From a virus, in IMG/VR virus record IMGVR_UViG_3300022198_004043, positions 1 through 36,411 of that record: a stretch of 36,411 nucleotides of DNA. The stretch is one strand, 5' to 3'. Within the stretch, counting starts at the first letter, position 1. Every line of letters begins with the position of its first letter. The notes under the pieces were generated by a model. The model had not been told where the DNA came from, searched no databases, and saw only the letters and a list, made by a program, of their open reading frames with translations. Below are positions 14,142 through 34,529 of the stretch, piece by piece. The position numbers and the translations under genes are program-made.

Positions 14142-15371
14142 TTATGCGTTTACAGCAGTTTCGAAGTCGGTGAAATCACCAAGAGCGTCACCACTACTAT
14201 TGATGATCAACTTATCGGTTGGAATATAAACTTCCGCAAGGGCGTATCCGGTAGCCGCAGAAACATCCGTTGTTCCCGCACCGTCTTGGTGTGTGGCAAA
14301 GATGAATCGATCCAAGCCTTCATCCCATCCGAAGAATGCCCCATCCTCGCTTGAGCCACGAGTAAACTGGATACCAGCATCGCCGACAGCATTTGAAGCC
14401 TGGTCAGCATCCTTAGCAATTTCGATAATCTGGTCAGTAACTGAAACAGTTGTGGAATCAACGGTTGTAGTAGTGCCCTGAATAGTAAGATTACCAGTGA
14501 CAGTCAGATTTCCGCCAACAGACATATCAACATCAGTTTGGACAGTGCCAGTCAGGTATCCGCCAGAGAGGTTGATGCCATTCTGGAACTCAGTAGCAGA
14601 GTCAAATACGGATTCTCCTGAAACAGAGATACCCGCAGATCCTATGGCAATTTGATTTGAGTCAGTAATACCCCCACCTTGCAACTCGATAGCTCCTGTA
14701 CCCATGGATAGCGATCCGGATCCAGAGGACAGATTCACGCCACCATTATTACTGAGCGAGATGCCGGATGAGCCAACATCAATACCACCATCTCCGAAAA
14801 GATGTTGAGTAGAGCTTGACGAAGCATCAATGTACGCATTGGAACCAAAGGTAATAACGCCATTTGTTCCCAGTGTGATACTACCATCCGCAAGGGATAG
14901 ATCGATACCACTGGAGCTTGGGTACAGACTTCCGGATCCAGAGGACATATCGATACCGCCTGAGCCGCTAATGGAAATACCTCCATCAGTCATAGTGATA
15001 CTACCATTAGTACCAAAGGTAATAGATCCATCCGCAGAAGAAAGGTCAATGCCGCTTGAAGATGGCAGTAGGCTTCCAGACCCAGAGGACATGTCAATGC
15101 CTCCTGAGCCTCCCATGGTGATGCCAGCAGAGGCTCCAAAGGTTAAGCCGATATCATTCGTTGATATATCGATACCGCCTGAGCCGACTGTGATTGCACC
15201 TCCTCCGGATAGGGAAATTCCACCAGTACCGGAGATATCAAGACCAGTGCTTCCGGTCATGTCGATATCTGGAACCGTCAAAACTCCTGTTAGAGTAGGG
15301 CTATCGCCGCTGATTTTTCCTGCGAGCTTGGTATTAACCAATTGCCCGATTTGAGTCATTAATGAGGACAT
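14142..15371 (-). CDS. Repetitive Gly/Ser-rich tail fibre protein
   Basis: A 409-residue protein with a short N-terminal module MSSLMTQIGQLVNTKL shared with the 118-residue protein just upstream. Residues ~40-235 are β-type repeats of the form GGIxxSSG/GxITxG, including two 48-residue near-identical units starting at residues 91 and 139 (GIDMSSGSGSL, then SSSGIDL, ADGSIT, GTNG). Residues ~285-330 hold VGGNLTVTGNLTIQGTTTTV followed by STTVSVTDQIIEIAKDAD, a motif recurrent in marine phage structural proteins. The composition suggests an elongated β-helical shaft. ATG at 15371 has AAGGA about 7 bases upstream. Likely a fibre; receptor unknown. Confidence 0.7.
   Translation of the reverse strand: MSSLMTQIGQLVNTKLAGKISGDSPTLTGVLTVPDIDMTGSTGLDISGTGGISLSGGGAITVGSGGIDISTNDIGLTFGASAGITMGGSGGIDMSSGSGSLLPSSSGIDLSSADGSITFGTNGSITMTDGGISISGSGGIDMSSGSGSLYPSSSGIDLSLADGSITLGTNGVITFGSNAYIDASSSSTQHLFGDGGIDVGSSGISLSNNGGVNLSSGSGSLSMGTGAIELQGGGITDSNQIAIGSAGISVSGESVFDSATEFQNGINLSGGYLTGTVQTDVDMSVGGNLTVTGNLTIQGTTTTVDSTTVSVTDQIIEIAKDADQASNAVGDAGIQFTRGSSEDGAFFGWDEGLDRFIFATHQDGAGTTDVSAATGYALAEVYIPTDKLIINSSGDALGDFTDFETAVNA
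14814..15101 (-). repeat. 144-bp tandem coding repeat (2 copies, diverged) in the fibre gene
   Basis: The two 48-residue units of the fibre protein correspond to two adjacent 144-base segments starting at about 15101 and 14957 on the minus strand. Both read GIDMSSGSGSL[L/Y]PSSSGIDLS[S/L]ADGSIT[F/L]GTNG. A degenerate third copy (GVNLSSGSGSLS) begins 72 residues after the second. DNA identity is visible but imperfect, so the copies are old or selected for protein rather than recently duplicated. Confidence 0.7.
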
Positions 15372-30989: not shown

Positions 30990-31140
30990 CCCACTTCCTT
31001 TTCGGAGGTATGCCATGATCGAGATATTCCTTCCGTATCATTGCCCCGATATCTCCAATCCTAAACTCTTCACCCCTCTCAAGAAGTCGATATCCTTCCG
31101 GAAGCGGAGGGGCTGGCAGAATGCAAAATTTCCAAAACAT
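30910..31140 (-). CDS. Small antisense gene, 'PEGYRLLExGE' type phage protein
   Basis: 76 residues opposite to all surrounding genes. PEGYRLLERGEEFRIGD (residues ~14-30) matches a motif seen in many small phage proteins of unknown function. It is followed by a basic β-rich tail (KRKWVKIETRIQTGTVVLKG). The 3' end overlaps the DUF1064 gene by 80 bases tail-to-tail. A TTGACA-type -35 lies just upstream of the ATG. The conserved motif makes it likely real despite its position; function unknown. Confidence 0.65.
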   Translation of the reverse strand: MFWKFCILPAPPLPEGYRLLERGEEFRIGDIGAMIRKEYLDHGIPPKRKWVKIETRIQTGTVVLKGRVARKIEDPE

Positions 31141-31147
31141 AAAATAA

Positions 31148-31188
31148 TTCAGTCCCTTCTTTCAAAAACTGTCAATTTTAATTTGACT
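31148..31188 (-). promoter_or_regulatory. Candidate promoter for the antisense gene, with dyad
   Basis: On the minus strand TTGACA (31176-31171), a 17-base spacer and CTGAAT (31153-31148), 7 bases before the ATG at 31140. GTCAA (31172-31176) and TTGAC (31184-31188) form an inverted repeat around the -35 box, a possible operator. The -10 match is poor (3 of 6). Confidence 0.35.
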
Positions 31189-31353
31189 CTTGGTATTATT
31201 TCTCCATTTTTTACGCATTGGTTAAATTTGTTTTCTACTTTGTAATCAATCAAGACTCTTCCTTGGAGTTCTCATAAGACCTACGCCACGCTTCAGACAC
31301 ATGGCGAATGATGTTGGAATCACATGGTCTTTTCTAAGGGAGAGTTTTTTTAT

Positions 31354-31380
31354 TTGACACTTCCTTTTCGGTTTTATCTT
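31354..31380 (+). promoter_or_regulatory. Candidate promoter for the replication genes
   Basis: TTGACA (31354-31359), a 15-base spacer and TATCTT (31375-31380). A GAGGA follows at 31383-31387 but is too far (about 21 bases) from the initiator ATG to act as a good ribosome binding site. The -35 box is perfect; the spacer is short and -10 is 4 of 6. Confidence 0.4.
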
Positions 31381-31408
31381 TTGAGGACTCCAACATCTAA
31401 AAAAGCCC

Positions 31409-32299
31409 ATGTGTCTAATAAAACTACATCAGGCTTGGAACTGTCAGACCCTGACAGGCACTACCAAGCTCGTCTTAATGTCCCTGGCCGACGATGCCAG
31501 CAAAGAAGGCTTAGCGACCTCCTCGCTATCCTCAATAATGAAGCAATCAAATTGCAGTGACTCAACCGCTCGCAGAGCAATAAAGGAACTGGAGGAAAAG
31601 GGATTTGTCCAGATACTCAGATCCGGAGGAGGTAGAAACGTCACTGAATATTTCGTGAATCCCATCGCTGATTCCGGCCTCGAAAAATCAATTCTTGAGG
31701 GGTGTCAAAATGATAGGGGTGTCAAAATGACAGGGGGTGTCAAAATGACAGGGGTATCCCCTACTGATAATCAGGGCTCAGAGCCTGAGGGGTGTCAAAA
31801 TGACAGGGGTGAATTACCTATGGTGTCCTCCCCCCTCTCAGACTCTCCCCCCACCCACGTTGGGGGAGTGCGTATGGGTACGCATGAGGAGGGCGATTCC
31901 GGTAGCGACAGGAAGGGCAGGAAGGCACCAAAGGGAAAGCATCCTTTACCGGACGACTGGTATCCAAACGAGCACAGCATTAACGTATGCCGGAATATCA
32001 TGAGGCTAAACCTTCAGATAGCAATGGAGCTTTTTATGAACTGGGCAAAAGGCAAGGGCAAGTTGTACGTTGACTGGGATATGACATTTCAGAACGCTTG
32101 CCGGAAGTGGATCCCAGAAACTCCCAGTGCATTACTGGTGAACACGCCAGAAGACGTGGCCCAGCAAAAAACAATGGATTTTACCATCGACAGCGACAAG
32201 GAGTTTGTCGAGTGGATGAAGGAGCGGGGTTACTGGCAAGAAGGAAGATCTCCTGAAGCCTTAGCGGATTATCGTGAAATGTTTGAAATGGGAGTTTAA
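31409..32299 (+). CDS. Replication initiator, lambda O-like, containing the origin
   Basis: 296 residues. Residues ~18-85 are a winged helix (TKLVLMSLADDASKEGLATS, IMKQSNCSDSTARRAIKELE, KGFVQILRSGGGRNVTEYFV). Residues ~95-175 are low-complexity and encoded by iteron DNA. Residues ~178-235 (LPDDWYPNEHSINVCRNIMR ... DWDMTFQNACRKWI) match the C-terminal motif shared by many phage O-like initiators. The gene lies 3 bases before a DnaB-type helicase gene. Known O proteins bind iterons inside their own gene and recruit the helicase; the arrangement here is the same. The start has no close ribosome binding site. An internal ATG (31478) would cut into the winged helix. Confidence 0.8.
   Translation: MCLIKLHQAWNCQTLTGTTKLVLMSLADDASKEGLATSSLSSIMKQSNCSDSTARRAIKELEEKGFVQILRSGGGRNVTEYFVNPIADSGLEKSILEGCQNDRGVKMTGGVKMTGVSPTDNQGSEPEGCQNDRGELPMVSSPLSDSPPTHVGGVRMGTHEEGDSGSDRKGRKAPKGKHPLPDDWYPNEHSINVCRNIMRLNLQIAMELFMNWAKGKGKLYVDWDMTFQNACRKWIPETPSALLVNTPEDVAQQKTMDFTIDSDKEFVEWMKERGYWQEGRSPEALADYREMFEMGV
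31441..31457. promoter_or_regulatory. 17-bp palindrome at the start of the initiator gene (possible operator)
   Basis: CTGTCAG-ACC-CTGACAG is a perfect 7-3-7 inverted repeat within the first 50 bases of the coding region. It contains the same TGTCA/TGACA half-sites as the iterons 250 bases downstream (there spaced by 3 rather than 5), suggesting the initiator may bind here and control its own gene. Confidence 0.5.
31699..31809 (+). repeat. Four iterons plus three palindromes: likely replication origin core
   Basis: The core TGTCAAAATGACA, itself a dyad (TGTCA-AAA-TGACA) and flanked by GGGG, occurs at 31703-31715 (one change, ATGATA), 31720-31732, 31738-31750 and 31793-31805. The first three repeat every 17-18 bases; the fourth is set apart. 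The gap holds three 11-base inverted repeats in a row: GGGGTATCCCC (31751-31761), CTGATAATCAG (31764-31774) and GGCTCAGAGCC (31775-31785). They lie inside the initiator gene, as in lambda. Confidence 0.8.
31845..31884. other. Two adjacent hairpins to the right of the iterons
   Basis: CTCCCCC (31845-31851) pairs with GGGGGAG (31862-31868). It is followed immediately by TGCGTA-TGGG-TACGCA (31869-31884), a perfect 6-bp stem with a 4-base loop. Being 36 bases after the last iteron they may be part of the origin, for example a primase or host-factor loading structure. Confidence 0.5.
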
Positions 32300-32302
32300 G
32301 CA

Positions 32303-33739
32303 ATGAGAGATACAGAATTACCATTTGACCAATCCGCACAAGGCAGCAATCCGCTTATGAGGGTCACTCCGCATAACGTAGGAATTGAGGAGGCGTGGAT
32401 TGCAATGCTTTTTATGGACTCAAGCCTTATCGATAAGGCTATCGAGGGTGGAATTACCCATGAGTACTTCTACAGCACGAAATGCCGGATCATTTACAGT
32501 ACCATCACCAACCTTTGGAAAACAAACAACCTGAATGAGAATGGGGGGATTGATGAGCTTTCAATTGCTCAAGAACTCAAGAATATCGGGATGTCTGAAG
32601 AGGTTGGTGGATTCAGTGAAATCACGAGAATAACCTCCTCTGCGGAAACGGCAACTTTCTTCGAAACCTACATGGGATACATTCAGGGGTTTCATCATGT
32701 TCGGTCTTTGATATCGGTTTGCAATGAAACGCTGGATGCCGCCTATTCGAATAGTCCGGTAATGAGCCTTTTGGCCGATGTTGACCAAAAGGTAAGCTCC
32801 ATATCAATGTCAGCACTTGCGGTAAAATCGATTCACAATAGCAAGGAGGTTGCCGCAAACGCAAAAGAGATAATCCGGCTAAGAAAAGAAAACCGAGGCG
32901 TTACAGGGGTAACTACGGGCCTTGAGGATCTGGACGGGATCCTGAAGGGATTTAAGCCTTCAGAATTGACATATCTCGTAGCACGGCCATCGACCGGAAA
33001 GACAGCCCTCTCACTCCATATCACCAAGCATGCCGCTAAGCACTTTGGAAGCGTCCTGTACTTCAGCATCGAAATGAGTCACGATCAACTTGGGTGCCGA
33101 ATGATTCAGGCAGAGTCAGGCGTTCCATTCAGGCTCATGGATGACGGACTGCTCAACAAAGTTCAGGAGGCTCAGATTGATGAAGCCAGCGACCGAGTTG
33201 GAGAGTTGCCGATTTACATTGATGATTTCAGCTCACCGACAATGTCTCACATTCGGAGTCGGGCCAGAAGGTTCGCCAATATCGGTCTCAAGCTTATTGT
33301 CGTGGATTACATGCAGTTGATTCAAACAGAGAACCCAAGGACATCCAGAGAGCAGCAGGTTGCCGAAATCTCACGAGGATTGAAGGCACTGGCAAAAGAC
33401 CTGAGCGTTCCTGTTTTGTGTCTCGGGCAATTGAATCGAGATATTGAAAAGGGCGGGAACCGGAAACCCAAACTCTCTGACATAAGGGAATCCGGACAGG
33501 CTGAACAAGATGCGGACGTAGTGCTTGCCCTTTGGCAGGAAAGGCCCGATATCAGGGATTGCGTAGACTGTGCGGTACTGAAGCAACGGAACGGGCCAAT
33601 CGGGGATATCAAGATCAACTATCAGCGAATGACTCAAAGATTTACGAAATACTTAATGCCTAAGGTGGAAACCTCCGATGTGCCTACATCTTGGGCAGGA
33701 TCAACTCACACGGCACGTCAGGAAAGGACGTTTGAATAA
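32303..33739 (+). CDS. dnaB: DnaB-type replicative helicase
   Basis: 478 residues; hexameric 5'-3' helicase that unwinds the fork. The N-terminal DnaB domain spans ~25-150 (IEEAWIAMLFMDSSLIDKAI). The RecA-like domain has Walker A ARPSTGKT at ~227-234, SIEMSHDQLGCRM (helicase motif 1a) at ~255, Walker B LIVVDYMQLI at ~331-340, and SREQQVAEISRGLKALAKDL plus LSDIRESGQAEQDADVVL with the arginine finger region near the end. GGGAG lies about 10 bases upstream; it starts 3 bases after the initiator stop and shares a base with the SSB start. No separate loader gene was seen, so the initiator may load it or it may self-load. Confidence 0.93.
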   Translation: MRDTELPFDQSAQGSNPLMRVTPHNVGIEEAWIAMLFMDSSLIDKAIEGGITHEYFYSTKCRIIYSTITNLWKTNNLNENGGIDELSIAQELKNIGMSEEVGGFSEITRITSSAETATFFETYMGYIQGFHHVRSLISVCNETLDAAYSNSPVMSLLADVDQKVSSISMSALAVKSIHNSKEVAANAKEIIRLRKENRGVTGVTTGLEDLDGILKGFKPSELTYLVARPSTGKTALSLHITKHAAKHFGSVLYFSIEMSHDQLGCRMIQAESGVPFRLMDDGLLNKVQEAQIDEASDRVGELPIYIDDFSSPTMSHIRSRARRFANIGLKLIVVDYMQLIQTENPRTSREQQVAEISRGLKALAKDLSVPVLCLGQLNRDIEKGGNRKPKLSDIRESGQAEQDADVVLALWQERPDIRDCVDCAVLKQRNGPIGDIKINYQRMTQRFTKYLMPKVETSDVPTSWAGSTHTARQERTFE

Positions 33740-34173
33740 TGTCAGGATTCGTAAAAATAACTGCGGTAGGAAATCTTACCGCAGACCCCAAGCATCAAAT
33801 TGTTGGGCAAAATCAAACCAGCAAATGCGAGTTTCGCATTGCTGTAACACCTCGGAAGGATGGGCCTACCTCATTCATTCCGTGTGTAGCGTGGAAAGGA
33901 ACCGCAGACCTCGTATCTAAGTACCTCGAAAAGGGATCAAAAGTACTGGTCCATGGAGAGTGGTCTCAAGATCAGTGGGAAGCTCAAGACGGATCCGGAA
34001 CAAGGCAGAAGGACTATATTACGGTAAATGATGTAGTATTCCTGGGTAGCCCAAATCAAGGCCAACAGACGCAGCAGGCTCAACCGCAGGCTGGATACCA
34101 TAATCAAGGACAGCAGGGACATCGGCCTCCTCCGCCTGCTGGGTACAATAATAACGGCTTTGGGCCTCCGTGA
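33739..34173 (+). CDS. ssb: Single-stranded DNA-binding protein lacking the acidic tip
   Basis: 144 residues. Residues 1-104 form the OB-fold (VKITAVGNLTADPKHQIVGQ; CEFRIAVTP; FIPCVAWKGTADLVSKYLEK; GSKVLVHGEW; ITVNDVVFLG), matching bacterial SSB. The tail is Gln/Gly/Pro-rich and ends GYNNNGFGPP, without the usual DDDIPF-type tip that binds repair and replication partners. Start ATG shares its A with the helicase stop; AAGGA is upstream. Coats single strands during replication and recombination. Confidence 0.9.
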   Translation: MSGFVKITAVGNLTADPKHQIVGQNQTSKCEFRIAVTPRKDGPTSFIPCVAWKGTADLVSKYLEKGSKVLVHGEWSQDQWEAQDGSGTRQKDYITVNDVVFLGSPNQGQQTQQAQPQAGYHNQGQQGHRPPPPAGYNNNGFGPP

Positions 34174-34453: not shown

Positions 34454-34529
34454 GTCAGGGTAGAGCAGTTGGTAGCTCGCCAGGCTCATAACCTGGAGGT
34501 CGGGGGTTCAAGTCCCTCCCCTGCCACCA
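34454..34529 (+). tRNA. tRNA with CAU anticodon, initiator-like
   Basis: A 76-base cloverleaf with encoded CCA. D stem GAGC/GCTC, anticodon stem CCAGG/CCTGG with loop CTCATAA (anticodon 34487-34489), T stem GGGGG/CCCTC with loop TTCAAGT, acceptor GTCAGGG/CCCTGCC with a T·C mismatch at pair 2:71. The A11:U24 pair and the loop/D-arm layout are features of initiator tRNA. But pair 1:72 is G:C (not mismatched) and the anticodon stem lacks three G:C pairs, so it is a hybrid. It could be elongator Met or Ile2 (lysidine-modified). The next gene starts 15 bases downstream. Confidence 0.93.

Follow-up and report, generated by a model that had tools for sequence, protein, structure and literature searches.

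We read positions 31699-31809 of the stretch analysed here (the window: the whole 36,411-base virus record IMGVR_UViG_3300022198_004043) as the core of the phage's predicted replication origin, lying inside the initiator gene and interrupted by palindromes that are probably decayed or incidental sequence; we give this reading a probability of about two in three (0.68). By inference from phages lambda and P22, this would be an initiator-embedded origin, a known arrangement. The repeats, the gene that contains them and their conservation as DNA over two reading frames are observed directly, and so is the recurrence of this dyad in numerous further initiators. An origin inside the initiator gene is a familiar design; the departures here are a phasing of 17-18 bp, the lack of a downstream AT-rich tract and the run of palindromes.

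The gene neighbourhood is that of a replication module. Structural genes are read leftward, whereas a rightward block starting at about 28.7 kb encodes an ERF-type recombinase, a PD-(D/E)XK exonuclease-like protein, a DUF1064 protein, the initiator, a DnaB-like helicase and a single-strand DNA-binding protein (SSB) (Table 1), with the helicase gene directly 3' of the initiator, at 32303. The HTH_36 match, the O-like PHROGs and a structural model all give the initiator a winged helix-turn-helix (wHTH) N-terminus. The AlphaFold2 model (16-row alignment, mean pLDDT 69.8) predicts an N-terminal winged helix at residues 3-90, with pLDDT at about 90 or above over most of the wHTH, a linker over residues ~91-169 that is predicted to be disordered (pLDDT below 50), and a C-terminal helical domain at residues ~171-236. 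No RepA_N domain was found among the Pfam matches of the protein up to E 0.1, and a sequence search of solved structures returned no match up to E 1. Foldseek placed 5kbj at rank 10 (E 5.7e-3) and 4pql at rank 14 (E 7.6e-3), both of which we take to be pSK41-type RepA structures, not above generic MarR-type winged helices. Elsewhere in the window, a tRNA-Met (CAT) gene lies at 34454-34529, just past the SSB block, and a minus-strand phage protein at 14142-15371 carries long GSGGIDMSSGSGS-type repeats, its internal DNA repeats having ~70% identity.

Table 1. Features of the predicted origin region and adjoining genes (window coordinates)
Feature	Position	Strand	Details
Nearest strongly AT-rich stretch	31126-31250		~70-74% AT; 450-580 bp upstream of iteron 1
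Replication initiator, 296 aa	31409-32299	+	HTH_36 E 9.2e-11; PHROG replication initiation / O-like families; AlphaFold2 model
Iteron 1	31703-31715	+	TGTCAAAATGATA; one mismatch in right half-site (ends GATA)
Iteron 2	31720-31732	+	TGTCAAAATGACA, exact
Iteron 3	31738-31750	+	TGTCAAAATGACA, exact
Palindrome 1	31750-31762		AGGGG-TAT-CCCCT; the G flank of iteron 3 serves as its left arm
Palindrome 2	31764-31774		CTGAT-A-ATCAG
Palindrome 3	31775-31789		GGCTC-A-GAGCC (31775-31785) and overlapping CTCAG-AGC-CTGAG (31777-31789); centre 31780 on 18-bp register
Iteron 4	31793-31805	+	TGTCAAAATGACA, exact; 55 bp (three 18-bp steps) past iteron 3
GC-rich inverted repeat	31845-31868		CTCCCCCCAC/GTTGGGGGAG; downstream of iteron 4
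Palindrome	31869-31884		TGCGTA-TGGG-TACGCA
DnaB-like replicative helicase	32303-33739	+	DnaB_C E 1.9e-76; DnaB N-terminal domain E 6.5e-12
Single-strand DNA-binding protein (SSB)	33739-34173	+	SSB E 4.1e-20

Tandem dyad iterons are present inside the initiator gene, as tandem TGTCA-N3-TGACA copies in the middle of a winged-helix ORF. The original prediction spoke of four copies of one sequence; there are indeed four dyads, although just three are exact. Their start-to-start spacings are 17, 18 and 55 bp, confirming the predicted 17-18 bases for the first three, but the fourth, which had been called displaced, is in register, since 55 bp corresponds to three 18-bp steps and leaves two slots between iterons 3 and 4. 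GGGG stands on all eight iteron flanks, with neighbours sharing a G tract, so that the full repeat is GGGG-TGTCA-AAA-TGAYA-GGGG. With up to two mismatches allowed, these four, within 103 nt, are the sole matches in the whole window. The signal lies in their clustering and not in their count: shuffles hold a mean of 1.68 such matches and four or more in 8 of 100, and in 200 mononucleotide shuffles an exact 13-mer reached at most two copies within 110 nt (one copy in 185, two in 15), compared with one 13-mer present four times in the window. Iterons 1 and 4 encode GCQNDR and iterons 2 and 3 encode GVKMTG; the same DNA is thus read in two frames, as CQND and VKMT, and it is therefore the DNA and not the peptide that is conserved. 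The iterons encode residues 99-133, which fall wholly inside the linker modelled as disordered.

Two further structures lie near the start of the gene. TGTCA-GACCC-TGACA, with an N5 spacer, lies at 31442-31456, 33 nt past the initiator start, and is possibly a fifth site or an autoregulatory site. Apart from it and the iterons, the 36-kb window holds no TGTCA...TGACA pair with a spacer of 0-12. Upstream, nested long imperfect inverted repeats (AGACACATGG/CCATGTGTCT and others) occupy 31263-31423, their right arm covering the start codon, with an RNA fold z of -2.47.

The dyad is not peculiar to this virus. A scan of viral_contigs for two TGTCA-N3-TGACA dyads 16-46 bp apart retrieved at least 119 viral stretches, compared with 19 for a reversed control pattern, and the exact core occurs in 19 stretches of viral_contigs and 45 of genome_contigs, 19 of the latter being one Alicyclobacillus chromosome that was dropped before counting. 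Among the matches listed, the remaining clusters comprise 93 in ORFs of at least 100 aa (84 unique) and 58 outside such ORFs; tandem copies are present in at least 57 different ORFs from phages or prophages, and the iterons of the 84 unique arrays, again among the matches listed, are mostly mid-ORF. The 84 encoded proteins (the window's and 83 others) include 41 with HTH_36 and 55 matching PHROG 270, "replication initiation protein"; for 43 there is no HTH_36 match at 0.001, and not all are proven initiators. Despite a mean column identity of 6%, one residue of the recognition-helix segment, R56 in window numbering, is at least 90% conserved, the sole column to be so. When the neighbouring bases are included, the dyad of the 57 distinct ORFs becomes GTGTCA-N3-TGACAC, with the G in 107 of 149 copies and the C in 115 of 149.

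The window shares with this group the half-sites, the 3-base spacer, the mid-ORF placement and the near-invariant arginine R56, yet it has a G where most of the group has the C after the right half-site, and its phasing differs. Among the matches listed, and with our own virus included, 99 of 130 spacings within ORF arrays are 21-24 or 42-45 bp, that is, two or four turns of the helix, although the viral scan accepted every spacing between 16 and 46 bp; 11 of 130 are 14-18 bp, whereas the 17-18 bp of the window make 1.6-1.7 turns. Where neighbouring iterons stand 42-46 bp apart, the sequence most like an iteron falls within half a base of the midpoint in 26 of 37 cases, often agreeing at 8 or 9 of 10 positions, so the wide gaps of such arrays are mostly filled slots. 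A literature string search for TGTCATTTTGACA and TGTCAAAATGACA gave no match and further literature searches turned up no description of the iteron, which is no proof of its being unpublished.

Similar units also occur in other settings. In Alicyclobacillus sp. ALC3 (NZ_CP066784.1; L160, L162 and 17 other loci), long tandem arrays repeat TGTCAAAATGACA with a period of 41 bp; the unit of the L160 array contains GTAGGTGTCAAAATGACACCTAC, and that array lies mostly between larger ORFs. The arrays form a chromosomal satellite whose unit resembles a phage iteron. Tandem 41-bp arrays of TGTCAAAATGACA are found as well in L168 and L196 (both Bacillota MAG YS1.bin19) and in L187. A Spirochaetales MAG (L188, from 4230 onward) has eight TGTCA-N3-TGACA dyads 37-40 bp apart, outside ORFs of 100 aa, and exact TGTCAAAATGACA pairs 16 bp apart, likewise outside ORFs of 100 aa, occur in L184, L198, L202 and L204 (Bacteroidales MAGs), L103 and L131.

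Among characterized systems, lambda O with ori-lambda and phi80 gp15 resemble the window in having an initiator with the origin in mid-gene and about four dyad iterons, and the lambda iteron CCCTCAAAACGAGGG has a TCAAAAYGA centre in common with TGTCAAAATGACA. The lambda spacings are 20, 24 and 23, against 17, 18 and 55 here; lambda has a 40-bp AT-rich tract beside its iterons, which the window lacks downstream; and no row of palindromes comparable to that of the window was noted between the lambda iterons. The gene that follows O is that of the loader P, whereas a DnaB-like helicase gene follows the initiator here. In P22, gene 18 is annotated as an initiator that contains the origin and gene 12, next to it, as a DnaB-like helicase, as in the window, but the P22 iterons have another sequence, spacings of 20, 24 and 23 and an AT-rich tract after them. 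Published accounts describe lambda O as binding as dimers and opening the DNA (PMC5043065, PMC7466680) and the lambda origin as activated by transcription (PMC5043065). On plasmids, the N-terminal DNA-binding domain of pSK41 Rep is described (PMC5703833) as binding four Rep boxes central in rep, the ori-encoded segment forming a linker. The window resembles this RepA_N system in its central boxes within the initiator's own gene and its ori-encoded linker, but pSK41 Rep is a plasmid protein of another sequence family, and the window has no Pfam RepA_N.

The initiators nearest to ours by C-terminal domain (35-37% identity over residues ~170-229; L005-L008) share the DWDMTFQNW-type C-terminal domain and mid-gene repeats, but they have another winged helix and GCACTGTGGC-type repeats without TGTCA-N3-TGACA. 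These domain differences suggest modular exchange, which fits the domain shuffling described for Gordonia phage initiators (PMC10684548).

Another departure from the known origins concerns duplex melting. The original prediction of a lambda-like architecture stands as regards gene order (an initiator, then a DnaB-like helicase and SSB) and iterons in mid-gene, as in lambda and P22, but fails as regards the melting tract: no lambda-type AT-rich unwinding tract was found beside the iterons within 100 nt downstream. There, the richest AT 40-mer up to 100 nt past iteron 4 lies 0.09 below the local AT mean, while the same measure is +0.30 in lambda, +0.22 in P22 and +0.20 in phi80, with a family median of +18 points; all 54 family arrays compared are richer in AT downstream than the window, and across 16 width and range settings 0-3 of 52-54 arrays are as low. 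Upstream of its iterons the window has an ordinary AT richness, and with both sides considered 0-16 arrays are as low. In duplex stability, 31826-31926 ranks within the top 0.6% of the window. The AT-rich stretch upstream (Table 1) is a candidate melting region by composition only.

Could the palindromes between iterons 3 and 4, together with the hairpins downstream, be a functional element that replaces the AT-rich tract, as dyad-binding sites, as a cruciform or as hairpins capturing helicase or primase? We regard this as possible though rather unlikely. The original prediction of three consecutive 11-base inverted repeats holds in that three palindromes occupy the gap, but the first is a 13-mer, the 11-mer being its 4-3-4 core, and reuses the flank of iteron 3; the dyads at 31845-31868 and 31869-31884 are additional to that prediction. 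A set of three perfect dyads that do not overlap (arms of 5 bp, loops of 0-3) arose in the 42-bp gap in 1 of 20,000 local dinucleotide shuffles, in 2 of 50,000 when the G-rich flanks were kept constant and in 11 of 50,000 synonymous recodings. (The zero counts of a shuffle test for three 5-1-5 palindromes were set aside, palindrome 1 being 4-3-4 or 5-3-5.) The surrounding 31681-31880 is the window's most dyad-rich 200 bp, with 9 against a mean of 1.15, iterons included; as single-stranded DNA, 31751-31890 folds with z -3.27 (2 of 200 shuffles equally stable), and the 120-mers at 31771, 31801 and 31831 are among the window's four most stable folds. The missing AT-rich tract likewise argues for a substitute. 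Against it, the palindrome pattern is post hoc, with an equally dense cluster arising somewhere in 10 of 200 whole-window shuffles, and the only further copy of the locus, in a second contig of the same virus, has one difference over the 6.9 kb compared and none in the palindrome stretch, hence gives no conservation signal.

Relatives weigh on the same side. No close independent relative in which palindrome conservation could be read was found in phages, genome_contigs or viral_contigs (same virus only); blastn of the iteron array returned one record in phages and eight in plasmids, at E 1 to 4 only, and a helicase search returned the same virus and six distant relatives. In the 57 related ORFs, with near-duplicates and our own virus removed and degenerate iterons (at least 8/10) masked, the stretches between iterons hold 4.3 non-iteron palindromes per kb, which is no enrichment over the 5.4/kb of the remaining ORF sequence; the 90 nt downstream of the arrays hold 6.4/kb. 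A first count of 50 non-iteron dyads against 23 expected (68 arrays), which had suggested a family-wide palindrome element, included our own virus and near-duplicates, and the excess vanished once these were removed and degenerate iterons masked. The predicted additional binding or melting element is therefore not borne out as it was put: the array is locally improbable but has no counterpart of raised frequency between the iterons of related ORFs.

The palindromes could also be remnants of iterons. The two empty 18-bp slots lie at ~31762-31763 and 31780. Slot 31780 is centred on palindrome 3, with an iteron match of 4/10, and within the gap the similarity to an iteron peaks with 6/10 at 31763, one base off register and flanked by two palindromes; by a binomial estimate, a 6/10 match is expected by chance in about every second gap of such size. 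With these values the palindromes were rejected as iterons themselves, and their register with the slots is suggestive only. Decayed or incidental sequence in the slots is most likely, more so than a second element; that palindromes so placed seldom arise by local chance (1/20,000 to 11/50,000) speaks against "incidental".

It is improbable that the repeats instead serve the initiator gene as autoregulatory operators, or act as a roadblock to transcription, with the origin elsewhere, for example in the AT-rich 31126-31250. The N5 dyad near the 5' end of the gene fits such a role, as does the position of the AT-rich DNA, upstream and not adjoining the iterons; yet operators are expected at a promoter, and the lambda, P22 and phi80 annotations label the mid-gene repeats of this protein class as origin or initiator-binding sites. 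GC skew, which the original prediction had offered as a check, with a minimum elsewhere counting against it, was dropped as origin evidence either way. The cumulative minimum of the window, at 31571, looked supportive, but an overlapping 42-kb contig (G001), which shares 23,669 bp with the window at 99.987%, reaches its global minimum at 31,895, a point 12.9 kb to the right of the iterons. Read to the letter, this is the outcome named as refuting the prediction. Skew tracks the coding strand in that contig, however, and because it follows gene strand it does not discriminate, so we do not count the displaced minimum as decisive. That the repeats merely reflect a repeated peptide, as their place inside an ORF might suggest, is scarcely credible, the change of frame between GCQNDR and GVKMTG, in a predicted disordered linker, already contradicting it.

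An origin embedded in the initiator gene is well supported by the identity of the initiator and its neighbours, by four G4-flanked dyads within 111 nt, by two frames and two peptides from one DNA, and by placement in the linker. Against it stand a phasing of 17-18 bp, not whole helical turns and unlike the two and four turns of the family, the absence of a downstream AT-rich tract, the off-site skew minimum of the longer contig and the 58 dyad clusters outside ORFs of 100 aa. At such an origin, dimers of the initiator winged helix would bind each TGTCA-N3-TGACA dyad; the steps after binding are drawn from lambda and P22. The nucleoprotein complex would bend and strain the DNA, the C-terminal domain would recruit the DnaB-like helicase encoded next door (genes 18 and 12 of P22 stand in this order too), and SSB would hold the strands. 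The array may be housed in the disordered linker as a segment tolerant of what the DNA dictates.

How the duplex would open is a matter for speculation. No low-stability tract lies just downstream, so opening driven by transcription (cf. lambda) would naturally take its place. It is a long shot that an origin embedded in the initiator gene dispenses with an AT-rich tract and opens through transcription and structure rather than low duplex stability. Four G4 tracts on the coding (non-template) strand surround the three packed iterons at 31699-31754, the window's only site of four G4 tracts with loops up to 15; any such site appeared in 2 of 300 mononucleotide shuffles, and 9 of 57 family arrays have at least four tracts of four on a single strand. 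Conceivably, the iteron dyads could be the hairpin loops in a G-quadruplex, or an R-loop could be favoured by the G clusters during transcription, and the downstream palindromes and hairpins could then hold the open strands and receive the helicase.

If this origin is active, it would be a natural test of what an initiator-embedded origin needs, with iterons kept and the lambda-type AT-rich melting tract absent. More broadly, GTGTCA-N3-TGACAC recurs with two- or four-turn phasing in many divergent winged-helix initiators; this simple pattern can be used to find phage origins in metagenomes and to approach the co-evolution of initiators and their own coding DNA.
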